From Paracoccaceae bacterium (GTDB lineage Bacteria > Pseudomonadota > Alphaproteobacteria > Rhodobacterales > Rhodobacteraceae): a DNA stretch of 64,000 bases. The DNA lies in contig CANNIA010000005.1 of the NCBI GenBank assembly GCA_947504705.1, positions 1-64,000 of the forward strand. The letters are read 5' to 3'. Made by a program: the position numbers and the translations under genes. Shown one piece after another: positions 1,405 to 57,910 of this stretch. The number at the start of each line of letters is the position of its first letter. Position 1 is the stretch's first letter. The notes under the pieces were generated by a model. The model saw only the letters and a program-made list of their open reading frames with translations. It made no database searches and was not told where the DNA came from.

Positions 1405-3360
1405 TCACACATCCAACTCCTCCACAAACCGGGCATTTTCCTGGATGTACTGAAACCGCAATTCCGGCTTCTTGCCCATCAGGCGCTCCACCAGATCGCT
1501 GGTGTCCCCCGGTTCGTCCTCGTCAATCGTCACCCGGATCAGTTTGCGGGTCAGGGGGTTCATTGTCGTGTCTTTCAAGTCCTTGGCGTCCATCTCCCCC
1601 AAGCCCTTGAATCGCTGGACGTCGATTTTGCCTTTGCCGCCCAGACCTTTGGCGAGCCAGACCTCTTTCTCGGCATCATCCGCCACATACAGCCGCCGCG
1701 CGCCTTGGGTCAGGCGGTACAGCGGCGGGCAGGCGAGGTAGAGGTGGCCCTTGTCGATCAGGGGGCGCATCTGGGTGAAGAAGAAGGTCATCAACAGGCT
1801 GGCGATATGCGCGCCGTCGACGTCGGCGTCGGTCATGATGATGATTTTCTCATAGCGCAGATCGTCCAGCTTGAAGCGGGTGCCCATGCCGGTGCCGAGG
1901 GCTTCACACAGGTCGCGGATTTCGGCGTTGTCGTTCAGCTTGGCGGAGGCGGCACCGAGGACGTTCAGGATCTTGCCCTTGAGGGGGAGGAGGGCCTGCG
2001 TCTCGCGGCTGCGGGCACCTTTGGCCGAGCCGCCGGCGCTGTCGCCTTCGACGATGAACAGTTCGGTATTCTCACGCGTTTTGGAGGAGCAGTCGGTCAG
2101 CTTGCCGGGAAGGCGCAGTTTCTTGGTCGCGGTCTTGCGCTGGGTTTCCTTTTCCTCACGGCGGCGCAGGCGTTCTTCGGCGCGCAGGACGAGGAAGTCG
2201 AGGATCGCCCCGGCGGATTTCGGGTCGGCGGCAAGCCAGGTGTCGAAATGGTCGCGGACGGCGTTTTCGACCCATTTCGCGGCTTCCTCGGTCGAGAGGC
2301 GGTCCTTGGTCTGGCCGACGAAAGAGGGTTCGCGGATGAAGACGGAGAGGAGCGCGCAGCCGCCGGTCAGAAGGTCGTCGCGGGTGATGAGGTCGGCCTT
2401 GCGGTTCTTCACCCGCTCACCATAGGCCTTGATGCCCTTGAGTGTGGCGGCCCAGAACCCGGCCTCATGCGTGCCGCCTTCGGGGGTGGGGACGGTGTTG
2501 CAGTAGGATTGCAGGAACCCGTCCTGCGCCGGGGTCCAGTTGATCGCCCATTCGACGGAGCCGGGGATCTGGTATTTTTCTTCAAAGCTGACGCGCCCGG
2601 CGAAGGGGCGTTCGGCGTAGGTGGTGACCTTGGCCATGGTGTCGGAGAGGTACTGGGCGAGGCCACCGGGGAAGTGGAAGGTCGCCTCCATCGGGGTGTC
2701 GCCGTCGGGGATGGCGGATTTCCAGCGGATTTCGACGCCGGAGAAGAGATAGGCCTTCGAGCGGGCGAGTTTGTAAAGGCGGGCGGGTTTCAGGGTCTGC
2801 GAGCCGAAGATTTCAGGGTCAGGGTGGAAGGTGACGGTGGTGCCACGGCGGTTCTGGATGGGCCCCAGCTTCTGGATCGGGCCACGGGGGATGCCGCGCG
2901 AGAAGGATTGTTCGTAAAGCTCTTTGTTCAGGGCGACTTGCACGGTCATCAGATCGGACAGCGCGTTGACGACCGAGGAGCCGACGCCGTTCAACCCGCC
3001 GGAGGTTGAATAGGCCTTGGCGTTGAATTTGCCGCCGGCGTGGAGGGTGCAGAGGATGACCTCCAAGGCCGATTTGCCGGGAAATTTCGGGTGCGGGTCG
3101 ACCGGGATGCCACGCCCGTTGTCGCGGATGGTGACGGAGTTGCCCTCGTGCAGTTCCACCTCGATCCGGTTGGCGTGGCCAGCGACCGCCTCGTCCATGG
3201 CGTTATCCAGGATTTCCGCGACCATGTGGTGCAGTGCGCGCTCATCCGTGCCGCCGATGTACATGCCGGGGCGCTTGCGGACAGGCTCCAAACCTTCGAG
3301 CACCTCGATCGAGGAGGCGTCATAGGTGGAGGCGGGCTGGGAGAGAAGGTCGTTCGGCAT
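1405..3360 (-). CDS. parE: DNA topoisomerase IV subunit B (ParE)
   Basis: 651 residues, normal for ParE. The protein is the ATPase subunit of topoisomerase IV, which with ParC decatenates daughter chromosomes. The GHKL ATPase comes first: EILDNAMDEA at about 49-58, DNGRGIP at 80-86 and the lid GGLNGVGSSVVNAL near 121-134. A GyrB-like transducer follows, then a TOPRIM region with LFIVEGDSAGGSAKGARS and the metal-binding DADVDGAHI. PVRKRPGMYIG near the N-terminus is conserved in both GyrB and ParE. The length and absence of the GyrB insert favour ParE. The stop is 39 bp from the toxin start, which shares the strand. Confidence 0.95.
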   Translation of the reverse strand: MPNDLLSQPASTYDASSIEVLEGLEPVRKRPGMYIGGTDERALHHMVAEILDNAMDEAVAGHANRIEVELHEGNSVTIRDNGRGIPVDPHPKFPGKSALEVILCTLHAGGKFNAKAYSTSGGLNGVGSSVVNALSDLMTVQVALNKELYEQSFSRGIPRGPIQKLGPIQNRRGTTVTFHPDPEIFGSQTLKPARLYKLARSKAYLFSGVEIRWKSAIPDGDTPMEATFHFPGGLAQYLSDTMAKVTTYAERPFAGRVSFEEKYQIPGSVEWAINWTPAQDGFLQSYCNTVPTPEGGTHEAGFWAATLKGIKAYGERVKNRKADLITRDDLLTGGCALLSVFIREPSFVGQTKDRLSTEEAAKWVENAVRDHFDTWLAADPKSAGAILDFLVLRAEERLRRREEKETQRKTATKKLRLPGKLTDCSSKTRENTELFIVEGDSAGGSAKGARSRETQALLPLKGKILNVLGAASAKLNDNAEIRDLCEALGTGMGTRFKLDDLRYEKIIIMTDADVDGAHIASLLMTFFFTQMRPLIDKGHLYLACPPLYRLTQGARRLYVADDAEKEVWLAKGLGGKGKIDVQRFKGLGEMDAKDLKDTTMNPLTRKLIRVTIDEDEPGDTSDLVERLMGKKPELRFQYIQENARFVEELDV

Positions 3361-54750: not shown

Positions 54751-54813
54751 GAAAACCCCCGCCTTTGGTCTGGCGGACTATTCCGGCGCGCGCGGATGGC
54801 TGCAAGGGGGAAA

Positions 54814-54850
54814 GGCGGCGACCTCTCAGGGAGGGAGGAGAGAGGCCGCC
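54814..54850 (-). ncRNA. CUCCUCCC-motif small RNA hairpin 5 (variant)
   Basis: Stem GGCGG/CCGCC plus CCTCTC/GAGAGG with a three-base bulge; the loop carries CTCCTCCC on the minus strand (54833-54840 complement). It is the last unit and is followed by TTTCCCCCTT, which could serve as the terminator of the array. The base before the core is T rather than C, unlike the other four. Confidence 0.6.
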
Positions 54851-54861
54851 ACTTATCCGGC

Positions 54862-54894
54862 AAACCTCGGGAGGAGGAAGGAGCCGGAAGGTTT
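54862..54894 (-). ncRNA. CUCCUCCC-motif small RNA hairpin 4
   Basis: On the minus strand AAACCT and AGGTTT close a hairpin whose loop holds CCTCCTCCC (complement of 54869-54877). Confidence 0.7.
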
Positions 54895-54896
54895 GG

Positions 54897-54930
54897 GCAG
54901 CGGTGCCAGGGAGGAGGTTGGAACCGCCGC
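54897..54930 (-). ncRNA. CUCCUCCC-motif small RNA hairpin 3
   Basis: GCGGCGGT pairs with ACCGCTGC (one G-U) around a loop with CCTCCTCCC (complement of 54909-54917). Confidence 0.7.
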
Positions 54931-54937
54931 AGGATCA

Positions 54938-54981
54938 GGTGACCAAGGAGGTCACCCGAAGGTTTTGGGGCACAAGGCCCC
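54938..54981 (-). ncRNA. Spacer hairpins inside the small RNA array
   Basis: Two perfect stems without the motif: GGTGACC-TCCTT-GGTCACC (54938-54956) and GGGGC-CTTGT-GCCCC (54967-54981). They separate hairpins 2 and 3 and may mark processing sites or the 3' end of one RNA. Confidence 0.5.
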
Positions 54982-54989
54982 GAATGGGG

Positions 54990-55024
54990 GCGGCGATACC
55001 CGGGAGGAGGGTGAGCATCGCCGC
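54990..55024 (-). ncRNA. CUCCUCCC-motif small RNA hairpin 2
   Basis: Perfect eight-pair stem GCGGCGAT/ATCGCCGC with a 19-base loop presenting CCTCCTCCC (complement of 55002-55010). Confidence 0.72.
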
Positions 55025-55034
55025 ATATCGCTTT

Positions 55035-55058
55035 GGTCCCTGGGAGGAGGACGGAACC
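55035..55058 (-). ncRNA. CUCCUCCC-motif small RNA hairpin 1
   Basis: GGTTCC pairs with GGGACC (one G-U) around CCTCCTCCC (complement of 55042-55050). It begins eleven bases after the DUF1127 stop, so this unit is likely cut from the 3' UTR. Confidence 0.7.
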
Positions 55059-55068
55059 TTGCGAATGC

Positions 55069-55284
55069 TTATTTGCCGTAGGCGCTTTCGCGGGCAAGTT
55101 CGGGAATGCTGAACCGGCTGATGCCCAGATCATTGAGCTCGCGGTCGGTCAGGTTGTTCAACTCGGTCACGGTGCGCTCATAGATGCGTCGCTGGCGGAT
55201 CGCGGTCAGGACGTTGTCCTTCACGATGGAAAACCGGTCGAAGAAACCCTTGCGGGCCATCGGGGTGCTGTTCACATAAGCCAT
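55069..55284 (-). CDS. ccaF1: DUF1127 small RNA-binding protein, CcaF1-like
   Basis: 71 residues from MAYVNSTPMARKGFFDRFSI. The C-terminal DUF1127 pattern is complete: RRIYERTVTELNNLTDRELN, then DLGISRFSIPELARESAYGK. In R. sphaeroides the 71-residue CcaF1 is encoded just before four CcsR RNAs and affects their maturation; the gene and five similar hairpins have the same order here. AGAGG precedes the ATG. The array and gene should share a stress-induced transcript. Confidence 0.88.
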   Translation of the reverse strand: MAYVNSTPMARKGFFDRFSIVKDNVLTAIRQRRIYERTVTELNNLTDRELNDLGISRFSIPELARESAYGK

Positions 55285-55533
55285 GTCACTCAAGCCTCTC
55301 ATCGTTCTATTCAGCGGTTTGTTCTGCTGTTGGAGGTAACATGCGCTTCATGCTGCAGATGCACAATAGTGGGTCTGATCAATGCCGCCATGCAGCATGC
55401 GCATGACTGGCGTCACGGAAATGTCATGATTTTTGAAGCGGTTCGCCGAATTTTTGAGCAAATGGTCAACGGGGCTTGCCCTTCTGCGCAAAGATCACGA
55501 CCTTAGCGCAAAGCTTATGCAGAGGGTGAAGAG

Positions 55534-57069: not shown

Positions 57070-57104
57070 TCCCAACTTTTCCCTTGCTTTCCCATGAAAT
57101 CCCA
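57070..57104 (-). promoter_or_regulatory. MraZ-type operator: four TGGGA repeats at exact 10-bp spacing
   Basis: On the minus strand TGGGA, TGGGA, AGGGA and TGGGA (complements of TCCCA/TCCCT at 57100, 57090, 57080, 57070) are each separated by five bases. MraZ of E. coli binds direct TGGGN repeats with five-base spacers at its own promoter. Here the repeats sit just upstream of the leader RNA and about 280 bp before mraZ. They overlap a weak -35/-10 candidate (TTGCTT 57084-57089, CAACTT 57107-57112). Confidence 0.75.
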
Positions 57105-57118
57105 TGCAACTTCAGCTT

Positions 57119-57329
57119 ACGACGATGCGAAGGGCAGTGAACGGCAGGGGCGGCTTAAGACCCCGAACAGGCGTAAGGCAGGCTTCATACAGGCAGCCCC
57201 TTTCATCGGCGAAACAGAGATCCGGCGCGCAAGCGAGCAGACATCTCCCCCAGGTGGCACGCGTAGCTGGACACCCAGCGATGGGACAATGGCGGATCGG
57301 GTAGTGGCAGCAACCCGGTCCGCCTTTTT
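57119..57329 (+). ncRNA. UpsM-like leader RNA of mraZ (5' end approximate)
   Basis: In R. sphaeroides UpsM is a roughly 200-base RNA made by early termination in the mraZ leader. Here a comparable stretch ends in a strong terminator 56 bp before the mraZ start. The 5' end is placed seven bases after the proposed -10 and is uncertain. It lacks RNase P RNA signatures and any ORF. Confidence 0.65.
57291..57329 (+). terminator. Terminator in the mraZ leader
   Basis: GGCGGATCGGGT pairs with ACCCGGTCCGCC across a ten-base loop (one mismatch), followed by TTTTT. Read-through past it is needed to express the division cluster from the upstream promoter. Confidence 0.85.
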
Positions 57330-57385
57330 CATTTCATCGCCCCGGAAACGGGAGACTGGGCACCGTGGAATTGAAGAAGGCCGCA

Positions 57386-57910
57386 ATGGCGATGACAGAG
57401 GCGTTCAGAGGCGAGTTCACCCAGAAGGTGGACGGCAAGGCGCGGATCTCGATCCCGGCCGCCTTTCGGCGCATTCTGGAAGCCGACGATCCCCAACCCA
57501 GTGAAAACGCGCGGCCCCGGCTGTACATGGTCTATGGCGGCAAGGGCCGGACCTTTGTCGAATGCTATTCCAAGCGTGGCGCGGACCAGTTGGCGGCCGA
57601 TATCGAAGCGATGGACATGGGCTCGCCCGAACGCACGCGGGCAGAACGTGACCTGATCAGCCGCTCGGTGATGGTGGAAATCGAGCCGGATGGCCGCATC
57701 GTCCTGCCCGGCAAGGTGCGCGAAAAGATGGGCTTTGCGGGCGATCTGCCTGCGGCGGCGGAAGCCGCTTTTGCCGGTTTCACCAACCGGTTCCGGCTTT
57801 ATCGCCGCGAGGTCTATGAGGCCGAACTGGCCGAAGACGAAGATGATGACATCGACCCGCTGACCCTGGTCGGGCGGCATGCGGCAAGTCAGAATCGGCG
57901 GACGGGGTAG
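57386..57910 (+). CDS. mraZ: Division/cell wall cluster transcriptional repressor MraZ
   Basis: 174 residues from [27 protein letters not shown] five bases upstream favours 57386, with ATG 57392 as close alternative. Two AbrB-like MraZ domains: [18 protein letters not shown] and [20 protein letters not shown]. MraZ represses its own cluster by binding TGGGN repeats. The C-terminus is acidic ([18 protein letters not shown]). First gene of mraZ-rsmH-ftsL-ftsI-murE-murF. Confidence 0.95.

Follow-up and report, generated by a model that had tools for sequence, protein, structure and literature searches.

The DNA analysed here (the window) is a 64,000-nucleotide stretch of a Paracoccaceae bacterium contig, and on its minus strand a short DUF1127 gene is followed by a run of hairpins with a common loop motif. 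The locus raises the question of whether it is an enlarged small RNA system with new parts or a member of an operon type already described. Short DUF1127 genes and CcsR-like RNAs often occur together in alphaproteobacteria, an association named CIN1 (PMC10253847). According to the published accounts from R. sphaeroides, ccaF1 and CcsR1-4 form one transcript that RNase E cuts with involvement of CcaF1 (PMC10253847, PMC8625941), CcaF1 affects the maturation and the levels of the CcsR RNAs (PMC10253847, PMC8307010), which PNPase trims (PMC7866481), and the operon is induced by singlet oxygen. Effects of the four RNAs on flhR, on the glutathione pool and on pyruvate dehydrogenase have been described (PMC8307010, PMC7074977). 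The original prediction saw in the window five such units, with the fifth copy and an insert of two motif-free hairpins as the new points. Our analysis makes it probable that the locus is an orthologous copy of the ccaF1-CcsR operon of R. sphaeroides (CIN1, cuckoo RNAs), contracted by about one two-hairpin unit and by the decay of one hairpin, with a stress small RNA mechanism that we infer. The observation holds, but the locus is unexceptional, a shortened representative of an operon type already described. Its features, in the order of transcription, are the following.

55337 to 55366, minus strand: RpoH-like promoter candidate, TTGTGCA-N16-CATGTTA, with a predicted start near 55330.
55069 to 55284, minus strand: CcaF1-like DUF1127 protein, 71 aa (PF06568, 41.5 bits, cut-off 23.3).
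55028 to 55064, minus strand: hairpin 1, with motif, first half of unit 1 (predicted fold; CcsR1 match at 54985-55068, below the gathering score).
54990 to 55024, minus strand: hairpin 2, with motif, second half of unit 1 (predicted fold; covariation over 39 loci).
54967 to 54981, minus strand: hairpin 3, a motif-free spacer, identical to spacer hairpin 3 of the related locus L020.
54935 to 54959, minus strand: hairpin 4, first half of unit 2, a motif hairpin whose loop has decayed to CUCCUUG (best match, motif hairpin 4 of L020).
54897 to 54930, minus strand: hairpin 5, with motif, second half of unit 2, mixing hairpins 5 and 8 of L020 (hairpin and 16-mer comparison).
54856 to 54888, minus strand: hairpin 6, first half of unit 3, with part of its motif base-paired (predicted fold; CcsR1 match at 54810-54891, below the gathering score).
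54815 to 54852, minus strand: hairpin 7, second half of unit 3, with a variant motif; its long stem precedes TTTCCCCCTT and may mark the end of the transcript (predicted fold).

The 71-residue DUF1127 protein is thus where it had been predicted, and the placing of this short gene directly upstream of the array on the same strand agrees with the CIN1 arrangement. A homologue is present in 17 of 18 same-genus relatives, and the one genome that lacks it is 70% complete. The neighbourhood is equally stable: mrp adjoins the gene in 17/17 same-genus loci and benE in 15/17, the two exceptions being the two cut loci (L004 and L014). Across the family, mrp is the neighbour in 25 of the 30 CcsR-rich family loci (L064-L093), a set that includes one same-genus locus and one short match. 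Among 44 named loci found with the protein, at least one motif stands behind the gene in 11 and none in 33, Ruegeria and Chelatococcus among the latter, so the array is no general property of DUF1127 genes. A search of the plasmid collection returned no match. One family locus (L088, genome G037, contig C6) carries four DUF1127-like frames and eleven copies of CTCCTCCC on the minus strand within a single 3-kb locus.

Five exact copies of CTCCTCCC lie behind the gene, as predicted, all on the minus strand (55042-55049, 55002-55009, 54909-54916, 54869-54876 and 54833-54840); the first begins 19 nt past the DUF1127 stop codon, and together they span 217 nt. One more match in the window (1985-1992) lies outside the array. 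Six matches in the whole window are ordinary, since 18 of 100 shuffles hold as many. For five within 217 nt, the Poisson estimate from the genome density (91 sites in 3.72 Mb) is ∼1e-15, a figure that ignores local composition. The region is also strongly folded, with a predicted energy of -130.5 kcal/mol against -94.5 kcal/mol for shuffles (z = -8.08; 0/200 shuffles as good), and the fold holds seven hairpins between 55064 and 54815. The earlier statement that each loop exposes the motif holds, strictly or approximately, for four of the five motif hairpins; in the one at 54856-54888, part of the motif pairs in an inner stem (predicted fold, by eye). The full 9-mer is found in four of the five motif hairpins (by eye), and the last copy is indeed the variant it was said to be, with the first C of CCTCCTCCC missing.

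How many units these hairpins amount to depends on what one unit is. The Rfam model RF02791 (CcsR1) has 83 positions and two hairpins, each with CCUCCUCCC, so that a single hairpin is half a CcsR and four CcsR RNAs make eight hairpins. The abstract of Billenkamp 2015 reportedly gives each CcsR two such stem-loops. At a relaxed threshold, the CcsR1 model matches the window at 54985-55068 (41.4 bits), at 54810-54891 (35.8 bits) and, weakly, at 54892-54963 (20.5 bits). All three stay under the gathering score of 65.3. We therefore do not count the locus as a strict member of RF02791, and it is its synteny and anatomy that lead us to file it as an orthologous operon. A scan of the window at Rfam gathering scores returned only a tRNA and, taken alone, would have hidden CcsR1. 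We note that only 9 of 198 family genomes exceed the gathering score, whereas 163 of the 198 have CcsR1 matches at E up to 0.001; the same relaxed search matched one of 14 control genomes (Thermus composti).

Motif spacing gives the same unit. In 43 arrays with four or more motifs, the window excluded, 207 of 338 gaps measure 34-47 nt, 128 measure 58-107 nt and three fall outside these ranges; two gap classes imply tandem pairs, closely strung in some arrays. The window therefore holds about three two-hairpin units, the middle one damaged, and the five units of the original prediction were hairpins that had been counted singly. Its two full-length CcsR1 matches are the two-hairpin units with CCUCCUCCC loops that characterize CIN1, the middle unit being short of one motif. 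Cuckoo RNAs are described as two to four neighbouring hairpins whose stems vary and whose loops share a conserved motif (PMC4504443), a description that pairs 1+2 and 6+7 (the latter with the variant motif) fit and the middle pair does not.

Taken together, the DUF1127 domain match and the two-hairpin CcsR1 matches uphold the identification of a CcaF1-like gene with CcsR/cuckoo hairpins, and the closest known system is the R. sphaeroides operon (CIN1, RF02791). Going by its published description, the two share a 71-aa DUF1127 gene followed by two-hairpin CCUCCUCCC-loop RNAs and a conserved TTG-type promoter sequence, and CcsR-rich loci across the family mostly share the mrp neighbour of the window. 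They differ in that R. sphaeroides has four units and the window about three, one of them damaged and with one hairpin motif-free, and in that the last hairpin of the window doubles as a possible terminator. The cuckoo family as described by Reinkensmeier and Giegerich (2015) has the same adjacent hairpins, variable stems and conserved loop motif, whereas the window strings its pairs in tandem behind a DUF1127 gene. The alpha-r14/NfeR1 RNAs of Sinorhizobium (RF02344, ar14) are reported to carry CCUCCUCCC anti-Shine-Dalgarno loops as well, but in three hairpins with a sigma70 promoter of their own; the window scores 37.1 and 35.4 bits with that model, against a gathering score of 58.8.

Comparison with relatives shows how the array may have reached its present size. 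In the nearest relative found, L020 (92% protein identity), the array comprises eight hairpins with the motif and two spacers. The first three hairpins of the window array correspond to L020 hairpins 1, 2 and 3, and window hairpins 6 and 7 match L020 hairpins 9 and 10. Window hairpin 4 (25 nt) has, relative to L020 hairpin 4 (32 nt), a loop shorter by 7 nt from which the motif is lost. L020 hairpins 6 and 7 and one of 5 and 8 have no counterpart in the window. Loss of one tandem unit by recombination, together with decay of one loop, would explain the window array and fits this comparison; the direction, loss in the window rather than gain in L020, is suggested by the fact that most of the genus has higher counts. 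The two motif-free hairpins that had been singled out do exist but differ in kind, one being a spacer shared with L020 and the other a decayed motif hairpin, and the insert is accordingly not new.

Nor is the fifth copy. Behind the gene, 4-13 motifs were counted in all 17 same-genus loci, mostly at pair-like spacing, the counts for L004 and L014 being lower bounds because these arrays end at or near a contig end. The 15 uncut arrays have a median of eight motifs, and three of them have five or fewer, so five is near the bottom of the range and having more than four is no novelty. Unit number varies widely within one genus, which is a new observation here, if a modest one.

The first unit was also examined for conservation of its stems. 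Over 39 loci, 97.2% of cells are paired across the 11 pairs of the second-hairpin stem, and 8/11 pairs have changed on both sides. None of 500 shuffles is as good on any of five measures, and sliding the partner lowers all five. The loop motif is invariant in this alignment by construction, the loci having been chosen by motif. RNAalifold on the alignment did not recover the first-hairpin stem, and we therefore claim covariation for the second hairpin only.

Upstream of the gene, TTGTGCA occurs in 22/22 aligned regions and ATGTT at equal spacing in 20/22, and the full promoter-like pattern has one match in its own genome. With the TTG set at -36 to -34, the promoter data published for RpoHI, and partly those for RpoHII (PMC3441632), agree with three residues of the sequence (A at -12, T at -11, T at -9) but not with the G at -14 of the window; a G at that position is reported to have lowered RpoHI activity in the E. 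coli groE promoter tested there. The assignment to RpoHI/II is a putative one, by this comparison, and the R. sphaeroides operon is itself reported to have an RpoHI/RpoHII promoter (PMC10253847, PMC3320616). A sigma70 scan found nothing. The terminator scan, which takes loops of 3-8 only, did not call hairpin 7; its one site, at 54777-54758, compares with 0.9 expected. In the interval between the array and benE (54777-54805, minus strand) we noticed by eye TTGCAG-17 nt-AATAGT, which is conserved in L020 and L021 and is a candidate benE promoter, not called by the sigma70 scan.

These features suggest to us that the locus probably makes stress-induced anti-Shine-Dalgarno small RNAs. In the model that we favor, whose transcription, processing, CcaF1 role and repression are taken from the published accounts of relatives, an RpoHI/II-type promoter would drive a single ccaF1-array transcript under stress, and RNase E, with the DUF1127 protein involved, would cut it into two-hairpin RNAs. 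The CUCCUCCC loops of these RNAs would base-pair at GGGAGGAG-like ribosome sites, reducing the translation or stability of the mRNAs concerned. A likely target would be pdhA (pyruvate dehydrogenase E1 alpha), in which case stress would lower pyruvate oxidation. The pairing proposed in the original prediction gains support from Sinorhizobium, where NfeR1 is reported to silence ntrB via the same loop motif (PMC10746234).

Candidate targets were sought in the genome itself. The pattern GGGAGGAG-N3-10-ATG has 14 matches at 13 places, against three for the reversed control. When the 13 places were read, three were judged true gene starts; the others are very short frames or look internal, and one stretch ended at the ATG. 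Of the three proteins, all searched, those of pdhA and scoA pass the curated cut-off, and the acs fragment hits acetate-CoA ligase with a score that falls short of the full-length cut-off. It was from this exact match in its own genome that pdhA was first noticed. Twenty-eight close matches were then fetched from the genus, one of which has no start. Among the 27 read, the own genome included, 25 have at the pdhA ribosome site a complement of the loop that is 8 nt or longer, and 21 have the exact GGGAGGAG. At pdhB, such a complement is found in 1/26 genus loci, with the 6-mer GGGAGG still present in 13/26. With the own genome excluded, the comparison is 24/26 for pdhA against 1/25 for pdhB (p = 4e-11, relatedness ignored).

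Outside the genus, the pdhA complement of at least 8 nt is rare (4/26). The shorter GGGAGG was compared between two groups. One comprises the genomes behind L064-L093 without the same-genus one, 29 in all and selected for their high CcsR1 scores; the other comprises the 20 listed of 35 genomes that have no CcsR1 match. A pair-like pattern still occurs in four of these 20, and in two of them (G115 and G123) it could, judged by eye, reflect real units. Under start rule 1, which favors strong ribosome sites in both groups and whose counts were made by hand from the listing, GGGAGG precedes pdhA in 18/26 high-scoring genomes and 2/13 without a match (Fisher p = 0.002, relatedness ignored; no start in 1/27 and 3/16 loci). 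Under start rule 2 the counts are 18/25 and 0/9 (p = 0.0002, relatedness ignored; no start in 2/27 and 7/16). At pdhB there is no such difference (6/27 vs 2/16, p = 0.69).

With the pdhA leader piece, the five motif loops are predicted to form duplexes of -16.5 to -21.3 kcal/mol, and the decayed loop one of -11.9 kcal/mol. These energies do not single out pdhA, the acs and scoA pieces being equal or better, and they were computed on pieces out of context with no shuffle control. In relatives, GGGAGGAG is kept at acs in 12 of 29 loci read (one of them truncated) and at scoA in 10/22 (a further five of 27 loci have no start), own genome included, and this lower constancy makes both weaker candidates than pdhA. 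The three candidates identified in the own genome, scoA and acs (L100 and L103) with GGGAGGAG at the start like pdhA, all belong to acetyl-CoA metabolism.

We regard pdhA as a candidate direct target, a lead and not a proof, new here and modest; translation by itself could be reason enough to keep a strong ribosome site. It is conceivable, though we put it forward tentatively and with some doubt, that in this genus the CcsR loops repress pdhA directly through the kept 8-9 nt complement, with no intermediate such as FlhR, and that gain and loss of hairpins tunes the dose. If so, a stress operon would lower pyruvate oxidation without an intermediate regulator. An effect of this system on pyruvate dehydrogenase has already been reported (PMC7074977), and the pattern at the pdhA ribosome site adds a candidate direct target that can be tested. 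The portions of the literature consulted hold no statement of direct CcsR-pdhA pairing; the primary papers are outside that scope, and we do not claim to be the first to propose it.

Other readings of the array have to be weighed against its being a contracted but working operon. One is that the array is losing its function and by now serves chiefly to give the ccaF1 mRNA a stable 3' end, no longer yielding active small RNAs, as the loss of one unit and one motif relative to L020, the variant last motif and the partly paired fourth might suggest. Against this, the exact 8-mer is still present in five hairpins, both outer pairs (1+2 and 6+7) are whole, and small arrays occur in other members of the genus (the three of 15 above), and we judge it very unlikely. 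The many near-identical loops in one transcript, and the reported effect of CcaF1 on CcsR maturation and levels, would also suit a sponge or a set of CcaF1 binding sites, in which case the array would sequester a partner RNA or act back on ccaF1 rather than repress target mRNAs. Published RNAs with such anti-Shine-Dalgarno loops are described as acting on mRNAs, however (NfeR1 on ntrB, CcsR1-4 on flhR), and the excess of GGGAGGAG sites near ATG over the reversed control also argues for mRNA targets, which leaves this alternative improbable.

The reading as an enlarged system of five units, with two hairpins as a new insert, has in its favor that five exact motifs and two motif-free hairpins do exist. 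It is contradicted by the hairpin-pair unit of the CcsR1 model, by the comparison with L020, in which the insert resolves into a spacer and a decayed hairpin, and by the motif counts of same-genus relatives; we reject it and give it next to no credence. Correcting the unit count keeps a contracted array from being taken for an expanded one.

Further occurrences of the motif lie elsewhere in the same genome. Four stretches (L094-L097) hold other clusters of CTCCTCCC, and one of these (L094; genome G000, contig C45, 14100-14959) has three further copies on one strand within 0.9 kb. Within the window, a hairpin followed by CTTTTT (by eye) is present at about 57070-57395 on the plus strand, upstream of a gene that we take to be mraZ-like. 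At the corresponding place, R. sphaeroides is reported to have the small RNA UpsM (PMC5089854).
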